From: a virus
DNA length: 64,000 nt
Direction: 5' to 3' (one strand)
Virus record (IMG/VR): IMGVR_UViG_3300042400_000421
Location: 22,059 to 86,058 of that record
The position numbers and the translations under genes were made by a program. Shown piece by piece: positions 42,021-57,460 of this stretch. Every line of letters starts with the position of its first letter. Position 1 is the stretch's first letter. The notes under the pieces are model-generated. The model was not told where the DNA came from. It saw nothing but the letters and a program-made list of their open reading frames with translations, and did no database searches.

Positions 42021-42931
42021 TAGACCACATAATCCATCACAAACAGTGTGTAATCCATAAGCAAGATATCTGCTTCAATGTTCCCCGTTGATTCATAGAA
42101 GTTCTGATTCATATACAACGAGATTGCATCCATGTCAGCTCTATAAATTCCGTGATTACGATATTCAGAGTCATTATTCATAATATCGGCAACAAGAAGT
42201 TGAGCAGCCTGCTTTATATTGTCAGGAACATATCTCCAGCCATAATCTCCAGTTACTTTATAAATAGAGTCATTATTAAATTTTCCAATAAGAAATGTGT
42301 TCTCTAAACTATTAGATTTCTTAAATCTAATGTTCCAGCTTGTATCAAAGCCAAAACCTTGCTTTACTTTTTCAATATTTGATGTATTCTCTCCGTAAAG
42401 AATAAACTCATCATCAGTTCCGGGATCTTGTACAACATCAGTCATTGTTGAGATAGGTAATGGTAATCTAAGGCTCGAAAAACCGTTGCCATTTATAGAG
42501 ATTGAAAGATCCTGATAGAAGTCAAAGGACTGTCCACAGAATGTATTAATTATGTTCCTGACCCTCTTGTTCAGAGCTTCAAAATTGTTGGCAAATGTAT
42601 CCTCAAGTTCTGGATAAAGGTCAAAAAACTCTGAGGCCGTCAAGTAGGGGGTATAGACATTTATATAGTCAGATTGGGTATAGGAAACACCAGATACCGT
42701 ATAGGTAAAATCAACCCTGTGCTTGCCTGCTGAATTTAAAATATAGATTCCCGAACTTCTCTGCCCAAAGGTGATTGTATAAACCCCTGTGCCCGTTCTA
42801 GTGGCGCTGGTTGGACCTGAGACTAGATCGCCGAATTCATGATAGAGCGACACCGATACCAGATTTGAGGTTGGGTCACTTGGCAGGGTTAGTGTAAGGG
42901 TTTTAGATGTGTTGATTTTTACTTCATCCAT
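42020..42931 (-). CDS. Head-tail adaptor with N-terminal beta domain
   Basis: This 303-residue protein has an Ig-like beta domain in the first 105 residues (KTLTLTLPSDPTSNLVSVSL) and then a helical adaptor part, YLTASEFFDLYPELEDTFAN, with the FDLYPEL helix of head-tail connectors and IKQAAQLLVADIMNNDSEYR. It would plug onto the portal. The ATG has no ribosome site; TATAAT ends nine bases upstream. It is separated from the capsid genes by about 15 kb. Confidence 0.8.
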   Translation of the reverse strand: MDEVKINTSKTLTLTLPSDPTSNLVSVSLYHEFGDLVSGPTSATRTGTGVYTITFGQRSSGIYILNSAGKHRVDFTYTVSGVSYTQSDYINVYTPYLTASEFFDLYPELEDTFANNFEALNKRVRNIINTFCGQSFDFYQDLSISINGNGFSSLRLPLPISTMTDVVQDPGTDDEFILYGENTSNIEKVKQGFGFDTSWNIRFKKSNSLENTFLIGKFNNDSIYKVTGDYGWRYVPDNIKQAAQLLVADIMNNDSEYRNHGIYRADMDAISLYMNQNFYESTGNIEADILLMDYTLFVMDYVV

Positions 42932-42940
42932 TATGCTTTA

Positions 42941-42946
42941 ATTATA
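42941..42946 (-). promoter_or_regulatory. TATAAT box of the connector operon
   Basis: A perfect TATAAT reads on the minus strand, nine bases before the ATG at 42931, in the 41-base gap after the halogenase cassette. TTACCA lies 17 bases upstream as a partial -35 box. It would restart transcription after the cassette. Confidence 0.6.
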
Positions 42947-42972
42947 CAGCATATAGGTTTAGTTGGTAAATC

Positions 42973-43263
42973 TCAAAACCACCAAAAATGTTTCACTATA
43001 GACAAACTGGCTAGGATGACCCAAAGCACATTGAAGAGGATAATTGTTGGCAAAGTCTTGCGGGTTGATGTCCAGATAAGACTTATGCTTGAAATGATGG
43101 CAAAGATATATAACCACCACCATTGTTTATCAAGAAGAAGACCCGGAAAGATAATTGCAATCTTTGTTGCAAATCCCCAAGCCTCTACTGAGTTAACCCT
43201 TGTCCAATAAGAACGACTACTCATCGTCTTGATTGCATCAATTATTTTCTTAAAGAATACCAT
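42973..43263 (-). CDS. Small membrane protein of the halogenase cassette
   Basis: This 96-residue protein has two or three membrane helices: WGFATKIAIIFPGLLL, WWWLYIFAIISSISLIW and TIILFNVLWVILASLSIV. It is the last gene of the cassette and overlaps the upstream gene by 22 bases. AAGGAAA precedes its start. It may anchor or transport a product, but nothing in the sequence shows this. Confidence 0.68.
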   Translation of the reverse strand: MVFFKKIIDAIKTMSSRSYWTRVNSVEAWGFATKIAIIFPGLLLDKQWWWLYIFAIISSISLIWTSTRKTLPTIILFNVLWVILASLSIVKHFWWF

Positions 43264-44042
43264 TTCTTTTTTTCCTTCATCTCTTGCTCTATTCTAATCT
43301 GGTGCTGTCTATAAATCCGGCTATCATCCCTTTGAGCTAAGCTTCCTTTGCCCATACCATTCCCATTTATAAATCTACGCATTGATTCATTTCCCCAAAT
43401 AATATTTTTAAAATCTCCATGCCTATGATATGGAATCATATGCTGGATAGGTGTTCCGGCTGGAATAGTAAACTCCTTGTCCGTTAAAACATTTATCACA
43501 ACATTTATTTGGTTATAAAAATCAGTATGAACAATGCCCGGAACAATTGTATAATTTTCATTAGGTTCGTGTAGCATTGGTAGCGCAATAAGAGAAACCC
43601 CTTTTGGAGTGCGATATCTCCAAGGTGTTACTAATTTAGGGAATTGACCTGTTTGAACTTTATTATGTTTTGATATAGGACACCCCTCAGCCATTTCTTT
43701 GTTGAAGCCATCAATTGGAAAAGAATAATGATCATTGAAATCAGATGTTTTAAATTCAAAACGCTTACCAGTGGAGTCTGGTCTTATTGTTACATCACAC
43801 CATAGAGGGATTACAAAACCAGCAGTTGAGTAATCGTATACACCTTGGCATCTTCTCAATGAAAAACGGTCATGTGGTAAATCTTTCCACCAAGAAGGTA
43901 ATTTTTTTTCCGTAAGATATGGCGGAATGCCCATGATCCTATTGTCATCAGGGATTATTACAATTTCATTCTTCTTGGGCTTAGGTATATCTTCTAAGAA
44001 ATTTACAACCTTATATTTGTATTTGTTTGAGCGATTCCGCAT
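43242..44042 (-). CDS. Beta-rich protein, possibly DUF6065-like
   Basis: This 266-residue protein has LPSWWKDLPHDRFSLRRC near 50, STAGFVIPLWCDV, and a C-terminal barrel-like part VPGIVHTDFYNQINVVINVL then FTIPAGTPIQHMIPYHR. The last segment resembles a dUTPase- or cupin-type fold and the pattern I associate with DUF6065. Such proteins occur with Trp halogenases and oxygenases in viral and marine bacterial clusters. It overlaps the halogenase end by 32 bases, implying coupled translation. Confidence 0.7.
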   Translation of the reverse strand: MRNRSNKYKYKVVNFLEDIPKPKKNEIVIIPDDNRIMGIPPYLTEKKLPSWWKDLPHDRFSLRRCQGVYDYSTAGFVIPLWCDVTIRPDSTGKRFEFKTSDFNDHYSFPIDGFNKEMAEGCPISKHNKVQTGQFPKLVTPWRYRTPKGVSLIALPMLHEPNENYTIVPGIVHTDFYNQINVVINVLTDKEFTIPAGTPIQHMIPYHRHGDFKNIIWGNESMRRFINGNGMGKGSLAQRDDSRIYRQHQIRIEQEMKEKKKWYSLRK

Positions 44043-45480
44043 GGTCTACCTTTGCATGATTTGATTGTTCTATCTTAGCAGAGTCAACAAGATGAATTAC
44101 ATGATCTCTAATATTGAAGTACTCAATTAACCTAGTGGCATTCTCTCTCTTCAAGACCCCTTGCCCTTGTGCAACATGATACAAATGAGGAACATGGAAA
44201 AGTTCAAAATCAACATTGCCAACATCAGTTGCCATTGGGCTGCGTACACTCCATAGATCTAATAAATTATTCAAATACTCTGGCTTTTCCATGTTCTTCT
44301 GGTTTCTCCACATTTCACTATCATCTCTATCAGAAATATAGTGAAGGGAAATCATGGAAACCAAGTTATCCATCATAACATCCATTTTTTTATTAAAGTT
44401 GTTACCGACTATAGAATTAGAATCATCATAGCCTACAAAGTTTTCAATAAAGCACCTAATTTGCTGAATTGTTGAGCTTATTGAAGTAGCCTCTAGTGGT
44501 TCAACAAATGAAGAACACAGACCCAAAGCCAAACAATTCTTATACCACATTTTGTCAAGACTTCCCGGTTCAAATTTAAAAGACTTCTTTGGTGTAACTT
44601 CAAACCCAAGCAAATCTGATACATCCTTTATAGCCTGATCATCCGAAATTAAGTCAGAGTTGAATACATAACCGTTACCCCGCCTGCTTTGAGTTGGAAT
44701 TTCCCAAACCCATCCATTAGCAGTTGCTCTAGCCCGAGTATAGGGTCTAATCTGACCACTGGGGTCAGACTCTGTTGGGAATGCTATAGCAGCATTCATT
44801 TGAAGGAACTTTGAGTAAGACCTCCACTTAGTATTCCCCATTGCATTCATCAAGACTCTGGCTGTACCACTAGCATCAATCCAAAAATCCGATGTTTTTA
44901 CATCCATATTGGATGTCATAACAGATTCGATATATCCATTTTCATTATTCAAATTTACTTTTATAACCTCAGTATCTTCAATACTGATTCCTCTATTTTG
45001 GCATAATTTTTGCAAATAATCATTTAATCTATTTGTATCAAAATGGTATTGATTGACTGATGTATGTGGATTATCCGCTCTGACCTTGTTTTCAATCATA
45101 GCTCTAGATGCAGTATTTTCAGTCAGTGTTTTTCCAGCTTCAACCAATCCATTGTATAAACCACTTATTTGAAAAGGACCTTCATAGGGAACAGACGCAA
45201 CGCTATGGAAATAATCAGGGGTATGCTTTGTCCAATTTTCAAATCGAATACCATTTTTATGAGTAGCATGTGTCTCATTAAGCATTTCTGCAAGGGGTAT
45301 CTTGCAGATATCCATGAACATACGCCAATGTTCTGTGCTACCTTCCCCAACACCAACGATTCCAATCTTTGATGAAGACAATATTGATATATTGAATCTT
45401 GGATAAGCTGCTTTTATCATTAAGCCAGCTAACAGTCCAGCAGTGCCAGATCCAACTATTGTAATGTTCTTTGTATACAT
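44011..45480 (-). CDS. Flavin-dependent halogenase (tryptophan-halogenase family)
   Basis: This 489-residue enzyme shows the FAD motif IVGSGTAGLLAG at 8-19, VGVGEGSTEHWR at 42-53, a lysine at about 75 in THKNGIRFENW that matches the catalytic Lys of PrnA and RebH, the WxWxIP signature as WVWEIP at 257-262, and SSFVEPLEATS near 323-333. Together these indicate a working halogenase that makes hypohalous acid and passes it through the Lys. It needs reduced FAD from a host reductase; none is coded here. A cyanophage homologue (VirX1) is an iodinase with broad aromatic substrates. The substrate here is unknown; free tryptophan, a peptide or a virion residue are possible. Confidence 0.93.
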   Translation of the reverse strand: MYTKNITIVGSGTAGLLAGLMIKAAYPRFNISILSSSKIGIVGVGEGSTEHWRMFMDICKIPLAEMLNETHATHKNGIRFENWTKHTPDYFHSVASVPYEGPFQISGLYNGLVEAGKTLTENTASRAMIENKVRADNPHTSVNQYHFDTNRLNDYLQKLCQNRGISIEDTEVIKVNLNNENGYIESVMTSNMDVKTSDFWIDASGTARVLMNAMGNTKWRSYSKFLQMNAAIAFPTESDPSGQIRPYTRARATANGWVWEIPTQSRRGNGYVFNSDLISDDQAIKDVSDLLGFEVTPKKSFKFEPGSLDKMWYKNCLALGLCSSFVEPLEATSISSTIQQIRCFIENFVGYDDSNSIVGNNFNKKMDVMMDNLVSMISLHYISDRDDSEMWRNQKNMEKPEYLNNLLDLWSVRSPMATDVGNVDFELFHVPHLYHVAQGQGVLKRENATRLIEYFNIRDHVIHLVDSAKIEQSNHAKVDHAESLKQIQI

Positions 45481-46538
45481 ACAACCTTATCTATCATTTT
45501 TTTTGGATCAATACTTGGTGAGTATTGTAAACTATTTTTATTTTCAAAATAAACTTGAATAAGTTCAAGGTAATCTTTGCCCTCATAATCAATATTATTC
45601 CTTGTAACAATGTCATACATAAAAGTATCTATTTGATGTCTTTCTGAGGCAAGAACGCTTGGTGGTATTACAACACCACTTGGATGTGAATTGCTCAAGG
45701 ATGTTAGGGTTCTATACTGGCAATTTGATTTAATAAAATCAGAAAGGACTTCCGGCATTTCTTCTGCTAATTCATTTTCTCTTCCAGTATATGGCTGACC
45801 ATTTAAATACTTGGATAGCCTAGACGGAGGATATTGAGTGGACAACCATTCTTCTAATTCCGATGGGATGTTTAAACTTGCCCATAAAGCCTTTGCCTTT
45901 TGAGAAATCTCAATATGCTCTTGAACATCACTATCCGACACCTTAGCCCATTCATAAATAAGTTTAAGTATTGAAGAATAAGACCTTCCAGCTAGAAGCT
46001 GGTTGAATTCGTCATTAGGGTTTTCATTTTCTACTTGTAGAGTCTCAAAATATGCAATATGACAGACACCAGAAAGGCTAATTGGATTGAATGTTTTGGA
46101 TATCACATAGGGGTTGGTATTTTTAGGAATAAAAAAAGGAAATCCGCCATATTTCCCGTAATCGCATCGAAGCGGGTGTGTTCCATCTTTTGTTTTTGAA
46201 GTACCTTCAATTTTAGAATAGTCTTCAAAACTTGGCAATTCAATGGAATTAACAAATAAAAAAAATTTAAAATAATCAAATACTTTTTTATCTAAAATAT
46301 CAAACATTTGATCAAAATAAGTTAAATTAATATTTATACCATTACAAATAAAATTATGGACACCAACGCCCCTGACTGGGAAGGCAATAATCTTGCCAGA
46401 TTCTGTATTGATTACATCATAATCATTATAAGGAACCAAACCGTCTACGGTATTAACCTTTAAATCAGTATTGCTCACATCCCCTATGAAATAGAAGCTT
46501 TCATAGTCAAGGGGGTTAATTTCATTAATGCTTTTCAT
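45456..46538 (-). CDS. Unrecognised protein of the halogenase cassette
   Basis: I do not recognise this 360-residue protein. I start it at the ATGA at 46538, overlapping the oxygenase stop; a second ATG lies nine bases upstream. It has no signal peptide or membrane segment. The N-terminal half is beta-rich and aromatic (IIAFPVRGVGVHNFICNGIN), and the centre includes CDYGKYGGFPFFIPKNTNPY. Sitting between an oxygenase and the halogenase, it may be a partner or carrier of the substrate. Confidence 0.75.
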   Translation of the reverse strand: MKSINEINPLDYESFYFIGDVSNTDLKVNTVDGLVPYNDYDVINTESGKIIAFPVRGVGVHNFICNGININLTYFDQMFDILDKKVFDYFKFFLFVNSIELPSFEDYSKIEGTSKTKDGTHPLRCDYGKYGGFPFFIPKNTNPYVISKTFNPISLSGVCHIAYFETLQVENENPNDEFNQLLAGRSYSSILKLIYEWAKVSDSDVQEHIEISQKAKALWASLNIPSELEEWLSTQYPPSRLSKYLNGQPYTGRENELAEEMPEVLSDFIKSNCQYRTLTSLSNSHPSGVVIPPSVLASERHQIDTFMYDIVTRNNIDYEGKDYLELIQVYFENKNSLQYSPSIDPKKMIDKVVCIQRTLQ

Positions 46539-47137
46539 ATGAACCATGTTACCAGACTATATTTTACACCATTATCAACTGGGTGCGCTATGTGTGTATA
46601 TGGAAAATTGGATGGGAAAAGAATCACATCATCCTTGTTCAGCTTGACTGTCAAGTTGAAATTATTAAATTCCAATTCTCCTCCATCAAAACCATCTTCC
46701 CCTAGGCAAGCAACCATGCTAAGAATTCTTTCATTTTCGGAACCATGATCATGGTGTATATGGTATTCAGAACCACCTGTGTATTTTAATAAAGAATACC
46801 CTGTCTCTGTTTTTAATGAAAGGTCAAAAAAGTTTCTATAGTCCCAAATGCATTCGTTTAGGGGTGTAAGAATGTTTTCTATAAACTTTCCTTTTAAATC
46901 TTTTAAATCTTCATTAACATCTTCGGATAAGAGTACATTCATTGACATTTCAAGAGAAGTTCTGTAATCGCCAACAAACCCATTGTTTACACCATTGCCA
47001 GTTGATGACTGCATCCATAACAAATATGCCCAATCTCTATTTGCTTCACTTTCAATTAAATTAGTAAAATTTTCACTTTTTAATGCGTTTCTATATATAA
47101 AAATACACGGAGCTTGTTCAAATTTTTCAATTGACAA
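46535..47137 (-). CDS. 2-oxoglutarate/Fe(II)-dependent oxygenase
   Basis: This 200-residue protein has the prolyl-4-hydroxylase-type core: YHIHHDHGSENERILSMVAC with the H-x-D pair, GGELEF, and PYTHIAHPVDNGVKYSLVTW with the distal His and the Lys that binds 2-oxoglutarate. It would hydroxylate a residue or small molecule. I favour a TTG start at 47137, about ten bases after GAGGA; the ATG at 47173 lies inside the preceding gene. It is the first clear enzyme of the cassette. Confidence 0.85.
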   Translation of the reverse strand: MSIEKFEQAPCIFIYRNALKSENFTNLIESEANRDWAYLLWMQSSTGNGVNNGFVGDYRTSLEMSMNVLLSEDVNEDLKDLKGKFIENILTPLNECIWDYRNFFDLSLKTETGYSLLKYTGGSEYHIHHDHGSENERILSMVACLGEDGFDGGELEFNNFNLTVKLNKDDVILFPSNFPYTHIAHPVDNGVKYSLVTWFI

Positions 47138-47531
47138 CAAAACTAAATTCCTCTTCTTTATTATCGTCAACAAGAATACTGCACAGATGCTCGCCAGAGG
47201 TTTGACAAAGGTAGTTGTACCTTACAGTGTGCATTTCTTCATAAATAGGTTTAATTGATTCATTGTTTATTAAAAGTTTAATGTTATTCTTTAAAGTTTT
47301 ATATTCATTAATATATCGGATACATTGATGAAAACCAATAGGTGCTTCTGTGTACAACAGACTTAGATCCTTCTTTTCTGGGATTTTAATCACTGACACA
47401 GTGTATCTATTGAAATCAACATCTGTGGATTCTTGCGAATCTCCAATTAAAATTGGAAGACCTGTTTTGATCGCCAACTCTTCTGCGCTAGCAATATGGT
47501 CATCGCTAGGGCAATACACATATCTTCTCAT
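47127..47531 (-). CDS. Hypothetical protein upstream of the oxygenase
   Basis: I do not recognise this 134-residue protein. The start resembles a Rossmann-like strand-helix (MRRYVYCPSDDHIASAEELA, TGLPILIGDSQE); the end has SGEHLCSILVDDNKEEE. It overlaps the oxygenase start and the upstream gene stop by one base. It could belong to the cassette or to the fibre region. Confidence 0.68.
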   Translation of the reverse strand: MRRYVYCPSDDHIASAEELAIKTGLPILIGDSQESTDVDFNRYTVSVIKIPEKKDLSLLYTEAPIGFHQCIRYINEYKTLKNNIKLLINNESIKPIYEEMHTVRYNYLCQTSGEHLCSILVDDNKEEEFSFVVN

Positions 47532-47764
47532 TACAAGTATCGATTCAGCAAGTCTTTTGTTTGGATATAGTGCTCGTAAGCATTTTTTAATGAAGCAAAT
47601 TTAACAACATCTTCTGGGGATGTTTTGTCGTCAAAAAACCCTGATTCAAAACTGTCAGGATCTATTCCTGCTTGAATCAGACCAGAATACAGACTTCTTT
47701 GAGCTTGTGTTATATTTTCTTCAACAATTTTTTTCTTGTCTTCATCTGTTATGTTAAATATCAT
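47531..47764 (-). CDS. Small hypothetical protein
   Basis: This 77-residue acidic helical protein (DKKKIVEENITQAQRSLYSG, later YEHYIQTKDLLNRYL) has AGGAG six bases before its ATG. No motif. It lies right after the large Gly/His-rich fibre-like gene and may be its chaperone or the first gene of the oxygenase/halogenase cassette. Confidence 0.68.
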   Translation of the reverse strand: MIFNITDEDKKKIVEENITQAQRSLYSGLIQAGIDPDSFESGFFDDKTSPEDVVKFASLKNAYEHYIQTKDLLNRYL

Positions 47765-47772
47765 AAAATCTC

Positions 47773-49872
47773 CTATGTGTTTAAAATTGTAATTACTGAA
47801 CCAGATTGACCTGCTCCACCACCAGACACAGTTCCACCAATTGTTGATGTTACCACCGTGTTGGCTATTGAGTCAGTAATGATAATTATACCACCACCAC
47901 CACCAGTGATGCCAGCTGATCCGGCAGTTGATGAACCAGCAGCGCCTGCAGTTCCACCATTTTTTACGACACTTCCTTGACTTGATACGGACCCCGCTGT
48001 TCTGTAGCGATATGTCCCATGATTGTATTGGTTGTGATACCTTGGCCATGCAGATGCAATATGCCATGCCCCGCATCCGGAAAAGAATTTATCCCCCCCA
48101 TGACCACCGTTATGCTCAACACCCTGATGGGGACCATCATGACCAATATGAAATTCACCGCTTGTGTGTGAGCTATCTGCGATTCTTGCTTCTCCAATAT
48201 TACCTCTATGCCCCGGAGTATGGTCAATGCTATTAATCCCATAGTATGTTCCAGTTAATGAATCAACATGTGCGTTATTGTTATAATCACCGCTGTGATG
48301 TGCATAATTTCCTCCTTGGTTATTTGCAGCACCAAAGTTATAAGTTCCGGGACCATGACCAAAAGTGCGATTAGTTTGTACCCCGCACCAATAAGAACAA
48401 TCCCCCGAACAGGTAGTATGGTGTACCACACCTCTATGAACATGGTGGTAGGTATACCCATGCCTATAATTCTCTGCATAGGCAACATTCGGTCCGCCAT
48501 GTGGAAGATTTGGGGTAGGAGTTGAGGCATGAGGTCCATGTGTTCCATCACCTGTTATATAATGCTTTGAACCATCAACCAAGTGAGTTAATGGTTGATT
48601 AGGAGCTGCTGTACCTGCACTTCCTGTTGAGCTATTTGCACCAACATTTGCATTCTGCCCTTGAGCTAAAATTGTTCCTAATCCAGTGATTTGCTTGGCA
48701 ACAATGAGGACAATACCCCCGCCGATTCCGCCGGTTCCTCCAACAGACGCAGGTGGTGTTGTACCAGCAGTTCCGGGACCGCCCGGTGCAAGAGCATTTC
48801 TGTTAAGTTCACCAGCACCACCATTTGTTGCAGGGGTTAAAGTTCCAGACGCACCAGACGCACCAGCAGCTCCGCCTCTTATTGCAGACACTGTTCCTTC
48901 GGTATCTATCACGATACCAGAAATCAATGTTTCAATATTTTTCCTATCAGAGTCAGTTATTTGTGATGCTGTATATGTATTACCACCAGAATTTCCTCCG
49001 ATGGCTTTTGCGATATTACCAGAGCCAAGGAGCATACGCTCTGCAAGGGTCGAATTAGAATAAAGTTGTTGCGGGATGACTCCAATATTACCAGTAAGAG
49101 TCAGTGTATTTTTTACAAATACACGATAACCGTTTGTATTCAGATGAACTCCGGTATTAATAGTAAGATTGTTGTAGTACATATCTCTAGAAAGAGATGT
49201 GTTTGAGGCAATTACAACAGTACCGTCAGACCCGGTTCCGTAAACTGAGTCATTACCAATTCTTTGAACTGAAGAGGATGGCTCAACTGAGAACATCCGC
49301 ACCGGTCTTACGCTGTGTGATTCAGATTTCAAAGGACCAACGGCATCCAAGTATAGCCACATAGAAGCTCTTGAGAATGCATCGCCATAGATAGTTCCAG
49401 TTTCTTGCGTTGAACCCCAATAGTTAGCATTGCCTAGATTGTCTGGATTGTTAAGGCCTCCTATGTCTCCATTATCATAAAAAAGAGCGGATACCATTTG
49501 ACCAAGTTCAAATGAAGATGGAAGAAACCAGTCATTCTTACCACCAGAAGTGCAAGTTCTAGCCAAAGCTGCTGCTGATGTAGCGGGGTCTGTATTTCCC
49601 TGAGCGATAATGGCTAAAGTATTAGCATAACCAGTTCCATATGCAGTGCCAGTCGCTCCGAGAACATTGGATGTTTGATAAGATGTTTGCGCCCAAGTCC
49701 TTTTAGGATCTGCCCCAACCCCATTCCACCCATAAGGAGCAGCTTCAAAATATTTCCCTGTTTCATTACCGGAAGTTGATGGAGTAGCAAATATAAATCC
49801 ACCGCTTGGACCAATATCGCCAACTGCAAATGTTCTTAATGTTTTAGGACTATATCTTTCTAAACCAGCCAT
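47773..49872 (-). CDS. Fibre-like protein with Gly-rich and His-rich regions
   Basis: This 699-residue protein has four parts. Residues about 15-195 (GPSGGFIFATPSTSGNETGK, NDWFLPSSFELGQM, NYWGSTQE, HSVRPVRMF) match the DUF1566/Lcl-type beta domain seen in bacterial surface lipoproteins. About 205-265 is a unit shared with the next upstream gene. About 335-420 is Gly/Ala-rich. About 430-620 is extremely rich in His, Gly and Tyr with several HxH pairs. It ends with a Gly-rich cap and VSGGGAGQSGSVITIL. Likely a receptor-binding fibre whose tip binds metal ions, as in T4 gp37. Confidence 0.75.
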   Translation of the reverse strand: MAGLERYSPKTLRTFAVGDIGPSGGFIFATPSTSGNETGKYFEAAPYGWNGVGADPKRTWAQTSYQTSNVLGATGTAYGTGYANTLAIIAQGNTDPATSAAALARTCTSGGKNDWFLPSSFELGQMVSALFYDNGDIGGLNNPDNLGNANYWGSTQETGTIYGDAFSRASMWLYLDAVGPLKSESHSVRPVRMFSVEPSSSVQRIGNDSVYGTGSDGTVVIASNTSLSRDMYYNNLTINTGVHLNTNGYRVFVKNTLTLTGNIGVIPQQLYSNSTLAERMLLGSGNIAKAIGGNSGGNTYTASQITDSDRKNIETLISGIVIDTEGTVSAIRGGAAGASGASGTLTPATNGGAGELNRNALAPGGPGTAGTTPPASVGGTGGIGGGIVLIVAKQITGLGTILAQGQNANVGANSSTGSAGTAAPNQPLTHLVDGSKHYITGDGTHGPHASTPTPNLPHGGPNVAYAENYRHGYTYHHVHRGVVHHTTCSGDCSYWCGVQTNRTFGHGPGTYNFGAANNQGGNYAHHSGDYNNNAHVDSLTGTYYGINSIDHTPGHRGNIGEARIADSSHTSGEFHIGHDGPHQGVEHNGGHGGDKFFSGCGAWHIASAWPRYHNQYNHGTYRYRTAGSVSSQGSVVKNGGTAGAAGSSTAGSAGITGGGGGIIIITDSIANTVVTSTIGGTVSGGGAGQSGSVITILNT

Positions 49873-49873
49873 A

Positions 49874-50605
49874 TTACACCAATTGAGAGTATATCACTGA
49901 ACCATTGACACAACTTGTTCCGCCTGTTACATTTGTTGTAATTCCAGTTGGTAAGGCTGAATGGGTTGAAACAACAATGATTACTCCACCTCCTCCTCCA
50001 CCGCCACCAGTTAATCCAGAGGCTTTAAAATAAGAAGTTGCGGTTGGGGAAATATAACGAGCAGCGATAATAAGAACTCCACCTCCCGGACCTCCAGAAC
50101 CACCTGCACCCCCTCTTAAAAAGAGTGGTGTTGTGTTGCTTGCGTTAATGACATATCCTTTTACAGATTGGGTTGGTTGGTACCAGAATCCACTTGTCGT
50201 TGTTTTATCGCCTGTACCGCCTTGTGCGACTGTTGGTGGAGTTGCAGTCTGTGTTGCACTGTTTCCTCCAAGGCTATTTGTAACCGCAGTATTAGTAGCA
50301 CCACCACCCGCAATAGAGCCAGTGCCTGAAAAACCAGTCGTCATCGTATAGTTGTTGGCTGTACCTACTCCAATAGTAGAGTTGGAAGCCAGAGTTAAAA
50401 TATTTTTTACAAAAATTCTATAACCCGCAGTATTTAAAACAACATCAGAGTTAACAGTGAGGTTATAATAAAATTGATCAGATGTTAAAGTTGTATTTGC
50501 AGAGATAGTTACTGTACCATCAGAGCCAGTCCCATAGGTTGAATCTGGGGCATCAATGAATGATGAGAAAGCATTTGCGGAAGGAAATCTAGATATACCG
50601 GCCAT
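49874..50605 (-). CDS. Gly-rich fibre-like protein (short paralogue)
   Basis: This 243-residue protein shares with the 699-residue protein the unit DSTYGTGSDGTVTISANTTL and NTAGYRIFVKNILTLASN, and ends in a Gly-rich sheet (GGSGGPGGGVLIIAARY, GGGGGGGGVIIVVS). The long Gly runs suggest polyglycine helices like those of adhesins such as S16 gp38. It begins at the stop of the next gene and probably forms part of the same fibre. Confidence 0.75.
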   Translation of the reverse strand: MAGISRFPSANAFSSFIDAPDSTYGTGSDGTVTISANTTLTSDQFYYNLTVNSDVVLNTAGYRIFVKNILTLASNSTIGVGTANNYTMTTGFSGTGSIAGGGATNTAVTNSLGGNSATQTATPPTVAQGGTGDKTTTSGFWYQPTQSVKGYVINASNTTPLFLRGGAGGSGGPGGGVLIIAARYISPTATSYFKASGLTGGGGGGGGVIIVVSTHSALPTGITTNVTGGTSCVNGSVIYSQLV

Positions 50606-50964
50606 TACGACTCCTCAACTCCAAAAATAGTTACATTCAATGCAGAGTTTGCAGAGCATAAAAATGTAATCTGATCACTAGTTGTATTGCTTGCAGTATT
50701 TCCATTGTTAATTAAAACCATTGAACAGTTAAAAGCAAGAGTTTCATTAGCATTAACTGTTATATTACTTAATATATCATGTGTATTGGCTTCGGCAACA
50801 TTAAGAGGCTTTAAACGAATGGTTGCAGTTCTTGAAGACGCTGTTGTATTTGTGATTAGAATTTGTTTAACAATTGTAGTTGTGTTTAGAGGTACAGTAT
50901 AAGCAACAGCAGTAACTGTTGATATCTGGGTTGGACCAGCCAACCTTTTTTGACTAATTGGCAT
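50605..50964 (-). CDS. Small beta protein, family shared with 57128-57460
   Basis: This 119-residue protein is an all-beta domain: VKQILITNTTASSRTATIRL, then ILSNITVNANETLAFNC and VTIFGVEES. The last third matches the 110-residue protein at 57128-57460 (TVNANET, then a VEYSA end). It is likely an Ig-like virion-surface or fibre-joint protein. Confidence 0.72.
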   Translation of the reverse strand: MPISQKRLAGPTQISTVTAVAYTVPLNTTTIVKQILITNTTASSRTATIRLKPLNVAEANTHDILSNITVNANETLAFNCSMVLINNGNTASNTTSDQITFLCSANSALNVTIFGVEES

Positions 50965-51722
50965 TATATAACCTCCATATAGAATCTGATCATGTTGTCA
51001 CGAACAGTATTGCTATTTACCCATAAACTACCATTATATTCTAAAACCTGTCCTGATGCTGGGGTTGTGATGGAAACATCGTGGAGTTCATCTATTTCGT
51101 ACCCATTCTGTGTTGCAACATAGACAATTCCGTTATTTGTTGCACGAACAACAACGCCAACAAAGACGAGGTGTTCTGGGGCAGATGGTTTTGTTTTTGT
51201 AAAAGCCCCATTTTCGCCAAGCCATAAAACATCGCCAGCCGTGTATCCAACCGACAGATCAATACCATCGACATATCCACGAGTGACAACAGGACCGTTT
51301 TCAGAAGTTGCAATCGATGAAGCGACTAATCCTATTGTTTTGGATGATGTAGCATCAGAGTCATTGTCTGCTCTTTTTACTGTTGCATGGTCACCTGTTG
51401 CCCCAAAGAGATAAACAACAGTTCCGGTTGTAAGCGTTGTTGCCTCAGCATTACGAACATAAGTTGCGTTTGAAGCATACTTATTAACCCAGTTGGTACC
51501 GTCATAAACAAGAGATTCATATTCTAGTGGCGATGTAATTACGACATCGGTAAGACCATCTAGATTTAAAGAACCAGAACTCCCGAATTCAACAATAGTA
51601 TTAGAAGAGTTTTTATAAAAAAGCTTACCGTCAGCATAATTAAGCCCTAACTCTCCATGCTCAAGCGTAGAGGGGACTGCAGTAGTTGTTCCTGAGTTTT
51701 TAATTTTAATGGTGTTAGCCAT
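50964..51722 (-). CDS. Fibre-type protein starting MANTIKIK
   Basis: This 252-residue protein starts MANTIKIKNSGTTTAVPSTL, the N-terminal signature shared with the next upstream protein and with many fibre proteins of marine and freshwater phages, followed by GELGLNYADGKLFYKNSSN. The middle reads GTVVYLFGATGDHATVKRAD, like a head-fibre domain. It is probably one of a set of interchangeable fibres. Confidence 0.75.
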   Translation of the reverse strand: MANTIKIKNSGTTTAVPSTLEHGELGLNYADGKLFYKNSSNTIVEFGSSGSLNLDGLTDVVITSPLEYESLVYDGTNWVNKYASNATYVRNAEATTLTTGTVVYLFGATGDHATVKRADNDSDATSSKTIGLVASSIATSENGPVVTRGYVDGIDLSVGYTAGDVLWLGENGAFTKTKPSAPEHLVFVGVVVRATNNGIVYVATQNGYEIDELHDVSITTPASGQVLEYNGSLWVNSNTVRDNMIRFYMEVI

Positions 51723-51734
51723 TACTTCCTCCTA

Positions 51735-52835
51735 CTAGAAAGTACCGCCATCTACTGTATCAGACCATGCAGGTACACCTGCTACAACTTTCAAGAACTG
51801 ACCTGTTGTTCCGATTCCAAGATTGGAAAGAGTGTTTCCAGATGAGGAATAAACTAAATCACCAGTTGTGTAAGAAGTAAGACCAGTACCTCCAGATGTT
51901 GAAGCAATTGCTGTACCATTCCATACACCAGTCACAATAGTGCCAAGTGTAGTCAAACTTGAGTATATGACTCCTGACCCTAAAGTTGTATTTGAAAGAA
52001 CTGAAGTTCCAGCGATTTCGTAAACTTTTCCTGCAACGAGGTTTAAATCTTCAGATGAAGTCCATGCGTCTGTTGCATCAACCCAGTTGAAGGTTTTGTT
52101 TGTTGCGCCAAGAATTGTAATACCAGCGCCATCAGCCGTTGTATCTGTTGGAGTAGCAACATTTGCAAGAACAATATTCTTATCCTCAACAACCAGAGTT
52201 GCGGTATTAAGAGTTGTTGTATTCCCATTAACAATCAAGTCTCCTGTAACGGTAAGTGTATTTCCAATTGTTACATCATCTGGAAGACCAATTGTTACAG
52301 CACCAGTCCAAGGACCAGTGCCAGTGCCAGAGACAGTAACTTCATTTGATGTTCCTGTGACTGATGTAACAGCAGCTGTTCCAAGATCGCTAATTTGTGA
52401 ACCAGTAATTGAAATCGTTGTATTACCAGCAGCAGTTAGACGACCATCCCCCTGTACAGTGAATGTAGCAACAGTATTTGCACTACCATAAGAACCGACT
52501 GTGACTGCTGTATTGCCAAGAGTAACTCCAGAAATTGCATTATCAACATAAAGTTTTGTTGCAGCATGAGTGTTTGCTGTTGGAGTAGGTACAAGAACAA
52601 GACCATTGAAAGTCTTATTTCCTGATACTGTTTGAACACCAGAGAGGGTCAAGTATGCGCCTGCACCACCAATTGCTTCTACTGTTGTAGCAGTGCCTCC
52701 TGCACCACCCGTTCCTTTACCGTAGTAAAGAACATCGTCTACTTCGTTATATGCAAGTTCTGCATTCTCCAGAGAGGCTGGTGCACCGGCTGCTCCTCCA
52801 GAAGCCCTTCTTTTAATTCTAATTGTATTAGCCAT
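51735..52835 (-). CDS. Fibre-type protein with repeated beta units
   Basis: This 366-residue protein is started at the ATG at 52835 (MANTIRIKRRASGGAAG), with GGAGG upstream; the longer frame to 52907 crosses the preceding gene. After ENAELAYNEVDDVLYYGKG come repeated strands such as SGVQTVSGNKTFNG, TPTANTHAATKLYVDNAI and TIGNTLTVTGDLIVNGNTTT, typical of trimeric tail fibres. It ends TTGQFLKVVAGVPAWSDT, a common fibre end. Confidence 0.8.
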   Translation of the reverse strand: MANTIRIKRRASGGAAGAPASLENAELAYNEVDDVLYYGKGTGGAGGTATTVEAIGGAGAYLTLSGVQTVSGNKTFNGLVLVPTPTANTHAATKLYVDNAISGVTLGNTAVTVGSYGSANTVATFTVQGDGRLTAAGNTTISITGSQISDLGTAAVTSVTGTSNEVTVSGTGTGPWTGAVTIGLPDDVTIGNTLTVTGDLIVNGNTTTLNTATLVVEDKNIVLANVATPTDTTADGAGITILGATNKTFNWVDATDAWTSSEDLNLVAGKVYEIAGTSVLSNTTLGSGVIYSSLTTLGTIVTGVWNGTAIASTSGGTGLTSYTTGDLVYSSSGNTLSNLGIGTTGQFLKVVAGVPAWSDTVDGGTF

Positions 52836-52836
52836 T

Positions 52837-53112
52837 TTAGTAATTACCTCCATCAAGTAATGTATTTGCGATTGAGTGAGCATGGTCTGCTCTACTTGCA
52901 ACCTCAAGAGTTCCGCTATTTGCGGACCTTGTTATATCCAACGGCGCTGCGTCAGATAATGTTAAAATTCTTTCTAGTGTTATTGTTGTTGGAGCACCAA
53001 CGATGGTTGTTATATCACCATTCTGAACGCTCAATATACTTGCATCACCACTAGACACAGATAAACTTGTTATATCACCAGTATTAACCTGTAAGATTGT
53101 TGTATCAGCCAC
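52837..53112 (-). CDS. Small fibre-associated protein with repeats
   Basis: This 91-residue protein starts with short repeated units, TILQVNTGDITSLSVSSGDA and SILSVQNGDITTIVG, about nine residues each, forming a small beta solenoid or spiral, then ITLERILTLSDAAPLDITRS. It ends HAHSIANTLLDGG. Its stop lies one base before the next fibre start. Confidence 0.7.
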   Translation of the reverse strand: MADTTILQVNTGDITSLSVSSGDASILSVQNGDITTIVGAPTTITLERILTLSDAAPLDITRSANSGTLEVASRADHAHSIANTLLDGGNY

Positions 53113-53440
53113 GACTTACCTGACCTGTCAATGAAACTTTGCCTGTCATTAAAGTTGTTACATACGAACCATTTGTTTCTTCAAAGTCGTAAAAATAAAT
53201 TCCAGGTTCTATTGAAGATGTAGCATCTGAAGAAAGAGACATTGTTACAAGACCATTAGCAGCACTTGTTACAGCAACGGTGAAAGAAAGGACTACGGAA
53301 TCAGACGAGCGAGATTTGCGCATCTGAGCCGTATAAGTTCTTCCTGTAATGTTTGTATTAACATTCGCACTATTTCTAATCCGAATTTCGTGCGTATAAC
53401 TATCACCTTTGTAAATTGAGATATTTCTTTCTGCAGCCAT
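53105..53440 (-). CDS. Small baseplate/fibre-type beta protein
   Basis: This 111-residue protein (ISIYKGDSYTHEIRIRNSAN, TYTAQMRKSRSSDSVVLSF, GIYFYDFEETNG) has the pattern of small BppU-like N-terminal domains that attach fibres to the baseplate. It starts three bases after the stop of the nine-cysteine peptide and overlaps the next gene by eight. Confidence 0.7.
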   Translation of the reverse strand: MAAERNISIYKGDSYTHEIRIRNSANVNTNITGRTYTAQMRKSRSSDSVVLSFTVAVTSAANGLVTMSLSSDATSSIEPGIYFYDFEETNGSYVTTLMTGKVSLTGQVSRG

Positions 53441-53442
53441 AG

Positions 53443-53541
53443 TTAGCAGTCACAAGTCTCACAACCACAGTCGCATTGTTCAACACAATCGCAATCACAC
53501 TCACAAGACTTATTTCTCCCCTTTGTCAAATCTTCCATCAT
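53443..53541 (-). CDS. 32-residue protein with nine cysteines
   Basis: This tiny frame starts at ATGATGG overlapping the stop of the lysis peptidase (ATGA) and ends two bases before the ATG of the next gene at 53440. The last 20 residues read CECDCDC, then VEQ, CDCGC, ET and CDC: nine Cys with Asp and Glu between them. The CxC spacing is that of metallothioneins and other metal-thiolate peptides, though much smaller. AAAGGGG lies inside the frame, not before it; translation is probably coupled. The exact fit between two genes supports a real gene. It may bind Zn or Fe or cap a fibre; no function is shown. Confidence 0.75.
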   Translation of the reverse strand: MMEDLTKGRNKSCECDCDCVEQCDCGCETCDC

Positions 53542-54068
53542 GCACCTGGCTTTGGCAAGGCTCTCCATGCTGCTTCAAATTTAGCAGCGTCTTTTGCCAT
53601 TTCTGGAGAAAGTTCCACATGCAACCACTGGCCGCCAAATGAACCAGCATTATCATCTTTGGTAAAAATTTTTACCCCAGCCTCATTTTCTCCTCTTGAG
53701 CAGCGAAATCCTCTTCCATACCCTTGCACTTTATCTTTAACATTAGTATCAAAAGCATAGTCATGGATTTCTTCAATTCCTAATTCTTTAGTATGAGCAA
53801 GGAACCAATTCCACATTTCAACTCCTGTCTTACGATCTGGATAACCTAAGTCAACAGCAGCGCCAGTTGCATGAACAGACATCCACTTCTCCATACCAGG
53901 ATCTCCAATCTTCTTACCTTCGGTATGAGAGTTTCTCATCAGCCTGGCAACATAGATCCCCATATTGGTTGCTTTCCATCTTTTATTGCAAAGTTCAGCG
54001 AGTTTTTGAGTTCCAGGCTGTGCTTTTTTTCCGTCAAAACTTGGGTAATAGCTATACTTTCTTGGCAT
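53538..54068 (-). CDS. M15-type peptidase, likely endolysin
   Basis: This 176-residue protein has the zinc site of M15 D-Ala-D-Ala / L-Ala-D-Glu peptidases: SVHATGAAVDLGYP with His66 and Asp73, and WLHVEL with His150. It would cut the peptide stem of peptidoglycan. There is no signal sequence, so it needs a holin. It is a single-domain enzyme with no cell-wall binding part. It overlaps the small membrane protein upstream by one base. Confidence 0.88.
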   Translation of the reverse strand: MPRKYSYYPSFDGKKAQPGTQKLAELCNKRWKATNMGIYVARLMRNSHTEGKKIGDPGMEKWMSVHATGAAVDLGYPDRKTGVEMWNWFLAHTKELGIEEIHDYAFDTNVKDKVQGYGRGFRCSRGENEAGVKIFTKDDNAGSFGGQWLHVELSPEMAKDAAKFEAAWRALPKPGA

Positions 54069-54256
54069 TATTTTGTCTTCCCAAATGCCGAATCATTAGG
54101 ATTCAGATAGCGCATAATGACAGGAAGGGCAGCAGCCCATAATGCATTTGCAGCCATTTTTACATCACCAGTTGATGCGTATACAGCAACAGCAGCTCCC
54201 AATACGCTTCTTGCGTAGGATGCAGCCATTGCCTTTTGTGCTTCAGTAATTTTCAT
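54068..54256 (-). CDS. Small membrane protein, candidate holin
   Basis: This 62-residue protein starts at 54256 (MKITEAQKAMAASYARSVLG) with AAGGAG seven bases upstream. It has hydrophobic stretches VLGAAVAVYAST and AANALWAAALPVIM and a polar end. The place right before the endolysin suggests a holin or pinholin. The earlier start at 54292 has no ribosome site. Confidence 0.68.
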   Translation of the reverse strand: MKITEAQKAMAASYARSVLGAAVAVYASTGDVKMAANALWAAALPVIMRYLNPNDSAFGKTK

Positions 54257-54291
54257 ATATATCTCCTTTTGTGGATAACCACTATAAGTCA

Positions 54292-54297
54292 ATTATA
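54292..54297 (-). promoter_or_regulatory. TATAAT box before the lysis genes
   Basis: A perfect TATAAT reads on the minus strand in the 43-base gap between two small membrane-protein genes. It leaves a leader of about 29 bases with AAAGGAGAT, so the holin candidate and endolysin could be transcribed on their own late in infection. Confidence 0.5.
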
Positions 54298-54299
54298 CC

Positions 54300-54548
54300 T
54301 TAGATGTCTTTTTGAGGCTGACTTTTAGAACCATTAAAGATTTCATCAATTTCATTTGCGTCAAGTTTGCCATCATTAAGAAAGGCTTTTGCAAGACCTT
54401 CAACAACTTTAGCAACTCCGCCAATTCCAGCCATAAGGACTGCTTGGGGGAGGTTGACTCCAGCAATAGAGCCAGCCCCAATTACTCCAAGACCAGATGC
54501 CCCAAATACAGCAAGTATTCTCAATAATATATTTTTAGTATTATTCAT
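54300..54548 (-). CDS. Small membrane protein with EF-hand-like tail
   Basis: This 82-residue protein has two hydrophobic segments (ILLRILAVFGASGLGVIGAG and NLPQAVLMAGIGGVAKVV) and then NDGKLDANEIDEIF, which resembles a calcium-binding loop. It may be a second holin or a regulator of the first. AAGGAGAAAAATAA precedes it. Confidence 0.65.
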   Translation of the reverse strand: MNNTKNILLRILAVFGASGLGVIGAGSIAGVNLPQAVLMAGIGGVAKVVEGLAKAFLNDGKLDANEIDEIFNGSKSQPQKDI

Positions 54549-54565
54549 TTTATTTTTCTCCTTTT

Positions 54566-55240
54566 TTACTCAAACAAAGTATTGTTTATTCTATAAACTA
54601 AAAACTCTTGAGCTCCAATATTTTTATTTTGAATTAAAATATCATCTAATTCATAAAAGAATTTGTTAATTAATTTATACATAGTCTCAATGTTTCCTAT
54701 GTAAATATTGTCAATTCCATAATTATTTTCATTATCAAAAATAAATGCATTTTTTGTAAATATCATTTTATTATTATCTTTTATAAAGTTAATAATTTTT
54801 TCTTTTTCAAAATTATTACTATTGTCCATAATGTCAAATCTTAAATTTATAATTGCTTTATTTTTGTCTACATTTTTATTATGGATATCTTCTATTACTC
54901 TATGTTTTCCATACCAATAATTTTTCCAACCAATGAGTGGAGTGGTTATATTCTGAATATTTCCAGATGTATTACCTATCAAAGTTATTTGAGTATCATC
55001 ATCAATAATAATGTTTTTAATTAAATGTTGTAAATCATCAAAATAATCATAAATAATTTGATTATTTACTTTTTTATTATTAACAGCTATTTGTCTATAG
55101 CTAATATTGTTCGCAAATATATCCCAAGTATGTATAAAAATTTTTAAATCTGGGTATAGGGCATAAATTTCTTTCACCAAAGAGTAAAGATCCTTTCTTT
55201 CAAATGAATTACGGATATGCCCTCTAATCATAAGTATCAT
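54566..55240 (-). CDS. Unusually AT-rich glycan-synthesis-like protein
   Basis: This 224-residue protein begins MILMIRGHIRNSFERKDLYS and IFIHTWDIFANNISYRQI, the signature of a family found in phages and capsule loci (WavE-like), with IINLRFDIMD as a possible D-x-D-type site. It is full of Asn, Ile and Lys because codons are almost only A and T, clearly more so than its neighbours: this suggests recent gain. It is probably a glycosyltransferase-related or surface modifying enzyme, inserted in the lysis region. Confidence 0.7.
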   Translation of the reverse strand: MILMIRGHIRNSFERKDLYSLVKEIYALYPDLKIFIHTWDIFANNISYRQIAVNNKKVNNQIIYDYFDDLQHLIKNIIIDDDTQITLIGNTSGNIQNITTPLIGWKNYWYGKHRVIEDIHNKNVDKNKAIINLRFDIMDNSNNFEKEKIINFIKDNNKMIFTKNAFIFDNENNYGIDNIYIGNIETMYKLINKFFYELDDILIQNKNIGAQEFLVYRINNTLFE

Positions 55241-55247
55241 TTATAAA

Positions 55248-55415
55248 TCATTCCTCTTTTTTAATTAGTGCTCCAAACATATGGACAACAAAAGCAGTAA
55301 CTGTTAGCCATAATCCATAAGTTTGAGTTTTGCCAGATAATGTAATTAAAACAATTACACCTCCAGATAATGTCCATGCCAAAGCATGGAGTTCTTTTAA
55401 TATTTTTTTAAACAT
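55248..55415 (-). CDS. 55-residue membrane protein, candidate holin
   Basis: This short frame starts in TAATG at the stop of the secreted protein, with AAGGAG six bases upstream. It encodes MFKKILKELHALAWTLSGG followed by two membrane helices (VIVLITLS and YGLWLTVTAFVVHMFGALI) with a tight turn between, and a charged KKEE end. Two short helices with charged ends is the usual shape of class II holins. It ends seven bases before the AT-rich gene. Confidence 0.68.
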   Translation of the reverse strand: MFKKILKELHALAWTLSGGVIVLITLSGKTQTYGLWLTVTAFVVHMFGALIKKEE

Positions 55416-57103
55416 TATTTTCTCCTTGATCGGCTACTACCCCGATCTGTATTACCAGAACCACCGCCTCCGGATGGTCCACCAGCACCTCCACCCGATG
55501 GGGCAGAACTGCCTCCAGAGGGCATAGGAGCTGTTGTAATCATTGTTAAAGTAGTTGTTACAGCAATGAGTGCCCTTCTTGCTTTTACATCTATCCCAGA
55601 GCCTGTAGGGATATAATCATCAAGACCTTCTCCGAAGATGTCAATCGCCCCCTCGAAGGCTTCTTTAATTTCAGTTGGGGCATCGGTAAGTGTTTCAACA
55701 AGAGCAACTTCTTCTGCTGGAGTAAGATTCTCAACAGCAATTTCTTGGAAGATTTCTGTAGCTTGATTTGCGTCAATACTTTCCAAAACCTTTGCGCTCG
55801 TAGCAAGGTCTGTTGCTTGGTCTTCTGTAACACCAAGTTCCAAAACACTGTCAACAGCATTAGACACCTGTTCTTCAGAAACAGAATCTGACTCTAAAAT
55901 TCCAACAACCGCTTCAAATTGTTCATCTGACAACGGCGTATCTAATACAGAGTCAATAACTGATGCAAATTTTTCATCCGAGATTGGCTCATCAAAAATA
56001 GAATCAAGGGCAGCAGAAAATTGCTCTTCAGATAACGGCTCAGAAAAGACTGCATCGACAGCAGCTTCAAATTGTTCTGCACTTAGTTGAGATGTATTGT
56101 CAAAGACAGCTTCCACTGCAGCAGAGAAGTTTTCGTCAGACATAGGCCCATCAAACACTGAATCAATAACTGTAGAAAACTGCGAATCAGTTAAATCTTG
56201 ACCAAGAAGAGAATTAACCACTGCCGTAAGTTCTTCAGGAGTTCCGACATCTGCTACTAAGTCATCAACAGCATTTGCAAGGTTTGCATTAGTTATAGGT
56301 GCATCGAAAATATCATCAACCGTTGCGTCTATAGTTTCTTGAACCTCTTGGGGAACTTCAATTGTTGGCGTTGGGTCTTCAGGAATTTCAACAGGTGTTG
56401 TATCTATTTCTGGAGTAGAAACTGGAGTTTGGTCCAACTCGGGAATTGAAACAGTGGTGTTTTCTGTTGGAAGTGTTTCAACAGGAGGGGGAATAACTTC
56501 CTCAACAGTCGTTGTAGTCGGTTCAGGCTCAGGTGCTATAGTTGTTGTAGAAGTTGTAGTGGAGGTTGTAGTTGAAGATGTTGTTGTTGTGGTCGGCACC
56601 ACTGTCGTTGTGGTTGTGGTTGTTGTGGTGGTCGTTGTAGAAGTTGTAGTAGTTGGCTCTATTGTGGTAGAAGTAGTTGTGGTTGATTCCACTGTCGTAG
56701 AAGTAGTTTGAGTAGAACCAACACCGTTAAAACTTAATTCATATTGTAAGTTCCACCCTCCATTGGTATGCCAAGCATCAGGGTTGCCACAACAGATACC
56801 AGCCCTTAGCCTATAACGACCAGCAGGCACCTCCATTGAGATATACGACTGCAGACCAATGGAGTCATCAATGCTATAGAGAAGCGTTCCAGATTCGTTA
56901 TATAACCAAAGCATAGGGTCTGAGTTATAACCAGCAATCATATAGGTTTGCGCTATGAACTGAGTAGTCTCACTGTATTCAAACCAAACATCCGTTGGCT
57001 GTGTGATTATTAGGTTTTCAGCCTTGGCGGGGGATGCAAAAATAGAAATAAAAATTAAAGGTATTAATACCCAAGAACCTTTTTTAAATCTTAATTGTCT
57101 CAC
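55415..57103 (-). CDS. Secreted Thr-rich repeat protein
   Basis: This 562-residue protein has a signal peptide (FKKGSWVLIPLIFISIFASP then AKA, cleavage after about residue 28), a beta domain to about 130 with VPAGRYRLRAGICCGNPDAW, a long Thr/Ser linker from about 131 to 195, a Pro/Glu region, then at about 255-425 repeats of 18-19 residues of the type VFSEPLSEEQFSAALDS, and a C-terminal hydrophobic patch with Gly/Ser and a basic end. The build matches surface proteins of Actinobacteria. Start is GTG at 57103 without a ribosome site; TATTAT ends six bases upstream. Confidence 0.85.
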   Translation of the reverse strand: MRQLRFKKGSWVLIPLIFISIFASPAKAENLIITQPTDVWFEYSETTQFIAQTYMIAGYNSDPMLWLYNESGTLLYSIDDSIGLQSYISMEVPAGRYRLRAGICCGNPDAWHTNGGWNLQYELSFNGVGSTQTTSTTVESTTTTSTTIEPTTTTSTTTTTTTTTTTTVVPTTTTTSSTTTSTTTSTTTIAPEPEPTTTTVEEVIPPPVETLPTENTTVSIPELDQTPVSTPEIDTTPVEIPEDPTPTIEVPQEVQETIDATVDDIFDAPITNANLANAVDDLVADVGTPEELTAVVNSLLGQDLTDSQFSTVIDSVFDGPMSDENFSAAVEAVFDNTSQLSAEQFEAAVDAVFSEPLSEEQFSAALDSIFDEPISDEKFASVIDSVLDTPLSDEQFEAVVGILESDSVSEEQVSNAVDSVLELGVTEDQATDLATSAKVLESIDANQATEIFQEIAVENLTPAEEVALVETLTDAPTEIKEAFEGAIDIFGEGLDDYIPTGSGIDVKARRALIAVTTTLTMITTAPMPSGGSSAPSGGGAGGPSGGGGSGNTDRGSSRSRRK

Positions 57104-57109
57104 CTAACA

Positions 57110-57115
57110 ATAATA
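57110..57115 (-). promoter_or_regulatory. -10 box for the secreted protein, leaderless spacing
   Basis: TATTAT ends six bases before the GTG at 57103. The gap to the previous gene is 24 bases and holds no Shine-Dalgarno sequence. This fits a leaderless mRNA. Confidence 0.45.
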
Positions 57116-57127
57116 CTAGATTATGAG

Positions 57128-57460
57128 TTAAGCAGAATACTCAACACCACTAATCGTAAAAGTACACTTATTATTAGCATTTACTACATAAATTTTTTGC
57201 TCAGCGCTAAGAACAATTCCTGCGTCATAAGAAACAGTTTCATTTGCATTAACAGTAAATGTTTTAAGAATTGCATTATTATTTCCCGGAGTGCCAGCAG
57301 ATGATAAAAGATGAATATCACATGTTGCAGCAGTTCCAGTAACATTACAAATGTTAATATTTCTAACTATTGAATAACTTCCTGCAGTGTTAGAAACTGT
57401 GTAGACATTTGAAGCGGTGTCATTACCGATATATAAATTTTTTGGCAATAAGTTAGCCAT
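57128..57460 (-). CDS. Small beta protein, family shared with 50605-50964
   Basis: This 110-residue protein (LYIGNDTASNVYTVSNTAGS, then FTVNANETVSYDAGIVLSAE and TISGVEYSA) has the same strand plan and the T-V-N-A-N-E-T motif as the 119-residue protein at 50605. It lies in a run of head-decoration-type genes, so the family may serve as an Ig-like decoration or fibre joint. Confidence 0.72.
   Translation of the reverse strand: MANLLPKNLYIGNDTASNVYTVSNTAGSYSIVRNINICNVTGTAATCDIHLLSSAGTPGNNNAILKTFTVNANETVSYDAGIVLSAEQKIYVVNANNKCTFTISGVEYSA

Follow-up and report, generated by a model that had tools for sequence, protein, structure and literature searches.

Description

Here, we describe a seven-gene cassette that encodes a flavin-dependent halogenase and a 2-oxoglutarate (2OG)-Fe(II) oxygenase beside a large glycine (Gly)-rich fiber gene in phage DNA from uncultured aquatic microbes. 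The window (the whole stretch analyzed, 64,000 nucleotides) comprises bases 22059-86058 of IMG/VR virus record IMGVR_UViG_3300042400_000421 (86,058 bases total), has a G+C content of ~38%, and encodes a major capsid protein ~50% identical to those of Streptomyces phages; an actinobacterial host is plausible. Halogenase-positive fiber loci were gathered from viral contigs by wide profile scans, many of the viral records being fragments, and fiber tips were compared among 114 distinct metagenomic tips (73 halogenase-positive and 41 halogenase-free). A scan of genome contigs yielded two extra halogenase-bearing loci (L277, L278) and halogenase-free fibers, with no firm host for such loci.

Cassette organization and exchange

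Seven open reading frames on the minus strand fill positions 42973-47764 with mutual overlaps of 1-47 bases, flanked by fiber genes on one side and a head-tail adaptor gene (phrog_442, E 1.9e-9) on the other, in agreement with an initial annotation that had placed seven overlapping or adjoining genes between fiber genes and head-tail connectors. From the fiber onward they encode the small protein P77 (47531..47764), P134 (47127..47531), the oxygenase (46535..47173), P363 (45456..46547), the halogenase (44011..45480), a phrog_7084 protein (43242..44042) and a small membrane-type protein (42973..43263). The synteny search suggested in that annotation found this order, from fiber to head-tail adaptor, recurring whole or mostly in other viral contigs; different gene orders occur in other halogenase-positive lineages. 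Among 73 distinct halogenase-positive fiber loci, 72 have the oxygenase, 72 the phrog_7084 protein and 39 P363. P134 accompanies the oxygenase with both types of fiber tip (62/73 halogenase loci, 34/38 oxygenase-only loci and 0/4 loci with neither enzyme), and P77 (60/73 halogenase loci, 3/38 oxygenase-only loci) and the membrane-type protein (82-99% conserved; 39/73 halogenase loci and 0/42 others, plus locus L156) mainly accompany the halogenase. In one phage (L063/L128), the halogenase group and the histidine (His)-rich fiber are encoded convergently, on opposite strands.

Comparison with two relatives indicates that fiber and cassette are exchanged between phages as one block. Over most of the 53 kb of relative L024, identity to the window is 95-99%, falling to 90% at 49851-54576; the largest break (43268-49851) corresponds exactly to the fiber plus the cassette, with the breakpoint at the start of the membrane-type protein gene. 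Relative L002 shows the opposite pattern, with 95% identity at 42644-50321 and mostly 70-82% elsewhere, and from these opposite patterns we conclude that the fiber and cassette move as one unit. Two further differences were seen in these alignments: a 562-residue protein (55251-57163) is 93% identical in L002 within surroundings of ~80% and is possibly another exchanged gene, and ~1 kb (25698-26737) within a 645-residue tail-type protein differs from L024 between flanks that are both 96% identical.

Cassette proteins

Residues 5-447 of the halogenase match positions 1-449 of the 458-position PF04820 profile (E 2.4e-94), i.e., the whole domain, with further matches to phrog_2928 (1e-94) and to PrnA-type structures (~3e-50). 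Its GxGTAG flavin adenine dinucleotide (FAD) motif (GSGTAG, residues 10-15), Lys75, GWVWEIP (256-262) and Glu327 within FVEPLEAT are invariant or nearly so across 17 aligned phage halogenases and line up with the PrnA motifs. The profile match and PrnA alignment thus uphold the intact Lys75, WVWEIP and FAD motif that had been reported for this protein, and the catalytic Lys/Glu pair that was to be checked does align, as judged by sequence. Where PrnA has TGI after its catalytic Glu motif, the window halogenase has TSI, as could be expected if the PF04820 protein had become some other flavin oxidase or a scaffold and the His-rich tip merely bound metal; given the near-invariance of the FAD motif, Lys75, Glu327 and the WxWxIP region among relatives, we regard this as very improbable. 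No flavin reductase was recognized among the window proteins scanned, and reduced FAD would therefore probably be supplied by the host. Three to five halogenase paralogues lie near one another on some phage contigs (L018, L022, L179, L189).

The oxygenase (PF13640, 1.2e-12) keeps the H-x-D and distal His noted initially, with an iron triad of His140, Asp142 and His194 and a basic 2OG-binding Lys204. Its best solved relatives by profile search are prolyl 4-hydroxylase (P4H) structures of the B. anthracis type (1e-14), and by analogy with these it may hydroxylate protein residues. It is also matched by phrog_2297 (6e-6), labeled 'DNA endonuclease', so that the label 'DNA endonuclease V' beside the halogenase of phage S-H38 (L045 13431-13922) may be wrong.

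P363 had been put forward, as a 360-residue protein, as a partner of the halogenase. The protein has 363 residues and also occurs in relatives without halogenase or oxygenase, beside other Gly-rich fibers, which rules out halogenase partnership as its sole role; for the same reason it looks like a fiber partner or chaperone. Its predicted model (pLDDT 81) has significant BFVD matches solely to uncultured phage proteins and no match in the PDB, and a profile search with P363 returned a match list of noise. The 266-residue cassette protein, thought earlier to be a beta protein perhaps like DUF6065, belongs instead to phrog_7084 (2.5e-28): DUF6065 (PF19541) gave no match to it at E<=1, and among 11 homologues a single one matched, at E=0.21. 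The predicted core of the phrog_7084 protein resembles dUTPases in core fold only, the dUTPase profile scoring 18.3 bits against a curated cut-off of 22.

The fiber and its tip

The large fiber gene (47773..49872, minus strand; phrog_13336) encodes 699 residues, 17% of them Gly, with a conserved domain at residues 206-265 (49078-49257). By sequence it is a gp38-like polyglycine adhesin, and it is our proposed substrate for the cassette enzymes; adhesins of this Gly-rich class set host range in hafunaviruses (PMC8651126). The adhesin HrrHF2_490 of haloarchaeal virus HF2 belongs to the same family (profile E 2.7e-9), and a tblastn search of an isolated-phage collection with the fiber domain found no relative at E<=1e-3. 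Residues 430-625 (47998..48585), flanked on both sides by Gly-rich runs, form a hypervariable tip insert with 26 His, 15 tyrosine (Tyr) and 3 tryptophan (Trp) in 196 residues. This His-rich tip, adjoining the cassette, was missed in the initial annotation. The neighboring small fiber paralogue (49874..50605, minus strand) lacks the insert and serves as an internal control, with 1 His in 243 residues. An extra N-terminal domain (residues 1-200; weak Lcl_C match, E 0.013) is shared with L002, L003, L011 and L021 and absent from many relatives, a pattern of modular gain or loss.

Tip composition matches the presence of the halogenase. A halogenase lies within 8 kb of every tip in which His reaches 12 or more per 100 residues (70/70), and no halogenase-free tip of the same fiber family exceeds 10 (0/41); 28 of the halogenase-free records carry no halogenase on any part of the record. 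Most halogenase-free tips (38/41) have the oxygenase and are rich in Tyr, Asn and Pro, and the remaining 3/41, without either enzyme, show neither residue bias. His is the residue most enriched in halogenase-positive tips (median 7.9% vs 2.7% in halogenase-free tips). From these figures we favor His as the residue that would be halogenated.

Flavin halogenases of this family work on indoles and phenols (PMC8407142), and the halogenase could instead act on Tyr or Trp of the fiber, leaving the His-rich part to some other use such as metal binding. Tyr stays a possible target, since none of the His-rich 150-residue cores is devoid of it. Tyr is, however, lower in halogenase-positive than in halogenase-free tips (3.0% vs 7.1%), Trp is equal between the groups and absent from seven halogenase-positive tips, and in those inserts that can be aligned His is better conserved than either (His 0.84, the highest; Gly 0.79; Trp 0.65; Tyr 0.61). 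Trp is thus not supported as the obvious target, and we consider a Tyr or Trp target unlikely, though the least so of the alternatives weighed here.

The His-rich inserts form 37 sequence clusters, and their pairwise identity (28%) is that of shuffled sequences; since they cannot be aligned with one another, their His content is not accounted for by inheritance of shared residues. This bears on a further alternative, in which the link reflects nothing but common descent from a phage that chanced to have both a halogenase and a His-rich tip. The tree of fiber paralogues shows a single change of halogenase presence, as that account predicts; inserts unrelated in sequence that yet remain His-rich, within a block exchanged as a unit, make it quite improbable in our estimate.

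Proposed role of the module

We propose that fiber and cassette form a swappable module for maturation of a receptor-binding protein and that, on balance, the cassette enzymes probably modify the adhesin tip. That they act on the fiber is the best-supported reading because of the synteny, the co-exchange with the fiber and the match to tip composition. If the enzymes are active, products of the downstream genes would finish the adhesin ahead of virion assembly: the P4H-like 2OG oxygenase would hydroxylate the adhesin, acting on either tip type, and the flavin halogenase, acting on His-rich tips, would chlorinate or brominate aromatic residues in the insert, with His imidazoles the most likely and Tyr a possible target. 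P363 would act as fiber partner or chaperone, with accessory or scaffold roles for P134 and the dUTPase-like protein. The tip insert would be renewed almost wholly in each phage with its His-richness retained, and the modification may change the pKa of the tip, its metal binding or its contacts with the receptor. The initial annotation had suggested modification of virion or host-surface aromatic residues; synteny, co-exchange and tip composition favor the virion part of that suggestion, with the fiber as target, and count against Trp or Tyr, His being enriched instead.

Several observations weigh against this proposal. The His link is without phylogenetic replication, there being one change of halogenase presence on the fiber-paralogue tree, and P-values obtained by counting loci overstate independence because of this single split. 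Three of the 73 metagenomic halogenase-positive tips have fewer than 12 His per 100 residues, the low-His tips being L151 (6), L119 (8) and L145 (11) with L278 (7) from the genome contigs, and some halogenase-free tips reach 9-10. The conservation values may be inflated, as pairwise alignment of low-complexity inserts favors matches of abundant residues. The halogenases of L156 and L158, nested in the clade, lie beside a different tail-like protein with no such fiber. More distant phage halogenases, unlike that of the window, have no His-rich adhesin beside them in the DNA examined, so that a His-rich neighbor is not common to phage halogenases in general. Co-exchange with the fiber could also mirror a shared host-specific role and not that of enzyme and substrate.

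This last point belongs to an alternative in which the halogenase and oxygenase act on a small molecule (free Trp, a phenol, a signal or an antimicrobial) or on a host surface component and travel with the fiber only through shared host specificity. The closest solved relatives of the halogenase are Trp halogenases, L156 and L158 retain the enzyme without this fiber, phage halogenases are usually placed among the auxiliary metabolic genes (PMC10452541), and a link to 2OG/nitrogen metabolism has been drawn for cyanophage 2OG oxygenases (PMC3037559). Such an account leaves unexplained the match between halogenase and tip composition in more than 110 tips and the His-richness kept through full insert turnover, and the oxygenase resembles protein hydroxylases. 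The local alignment with PrnA, moreover, stops at PrnA residue 433, and the Trp-binding residues of PrnA sit in the C-terminal part beyond it. We judge action on a small molecule or host surface component to be decidedly unlikely.

Returning to the proposed maturation of the adhesin, the swapping of fiber tip and enzymes as one piece suggests that phages chemically finish the protein with which they grip their hosts. A more specific version is possible, although we hold it only tentatively: the enzyme may be a peptidyl-histidine halogenase, within the first enzyme system to halogenate (and hydroxylate) the imidazole-rich tip by which a virus binds its receptor. The enzyme set would then coevolve with the composition of the tip, His-rich tips being paired with a halogenase and Tyr/Asn-rich tips with oxygenases alone. 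If so, phages would push the chemistry of a host-recognition protein past the twenty amino acids, and these enzymes would be a dedicated class of protein-acting halogenases, useful for peptide labeling.

Other features of the window

A TATAAT hexamer (42941-42946, minus strand) follows the cassette, as described initially, with only 9 nt between its end and the start codon of the adaptor gene. The accompanying claim that it restarts transcription was not confirmed: with this spacing, and with TATACT at the same position in three relatives and a Shine-Dalgarno-like GGAGG in its place in some cassette-free relatives, a promoter role is only putative. In the replication region, genes for an FkbM-type methyltransferase and a GT4-conflict glycosyltransferase lie near each other (12322-15132).

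Comparison with known systems

Phage-encoded PF04820 flavin halogenases like that of the window are known from VirX1 (cyanophage Syn10), which has a large open active site (PMC8407142), and from phrog_2928; P-SSM2 and S-H38 carry related enzymes, and VirX1 matches the window halogenase more weakly than Trp halogenases do. The pairing with a hydroxylase, taken initially to be undescribed in phages, is already public in Pelagibacter phage HTVC008M, where the genes for a 2OG-Fe(II) oxygenase and a halogenase (gp078/gp079) overlap within structural genes; the HTVC008M pair adjoins terminase and neck genes, with no His-rich, Gly-rich fiber in the 21 kb examined. The hafunavirus-type, gp38-like adhesin of HF2 shares the window fiber domain and has a phrog_7084 homologue ~0.9 kb away, but its tip is not His-rich and no halogenase or oxygenase was found nearby. 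The adhesin/phrog_7084 pairing (L274, 6917-9774) thus extends to archaeal viruses. Halogenated His and Tyr occur in the jaw of Nereis, an animal His/Gly-rich material that offers an analogy only. The same holds for the halogenated His/Gly-rich structural proteins of sponge skeletons, which come from unrelated genes and contain 5-bromohistidine and halotyrosines (PMC8659048). No substrate has been established for phage halogenases or the many phage 2OG-Fe(II) oxygenases, which are classed as metabolic genes (PMC3037559, PMC10452541), and the module offers a concrete candidate, the adhesin encoded next door. In the open-access literature searched, no description turned up of a receptor-binding protein that comes with a halogenase and hydroxylase of its own. 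Both the enzyme families and the pairing of halogenase with oxygenase in phages are already known; to our knowledge, the adhesin-bound module is not.

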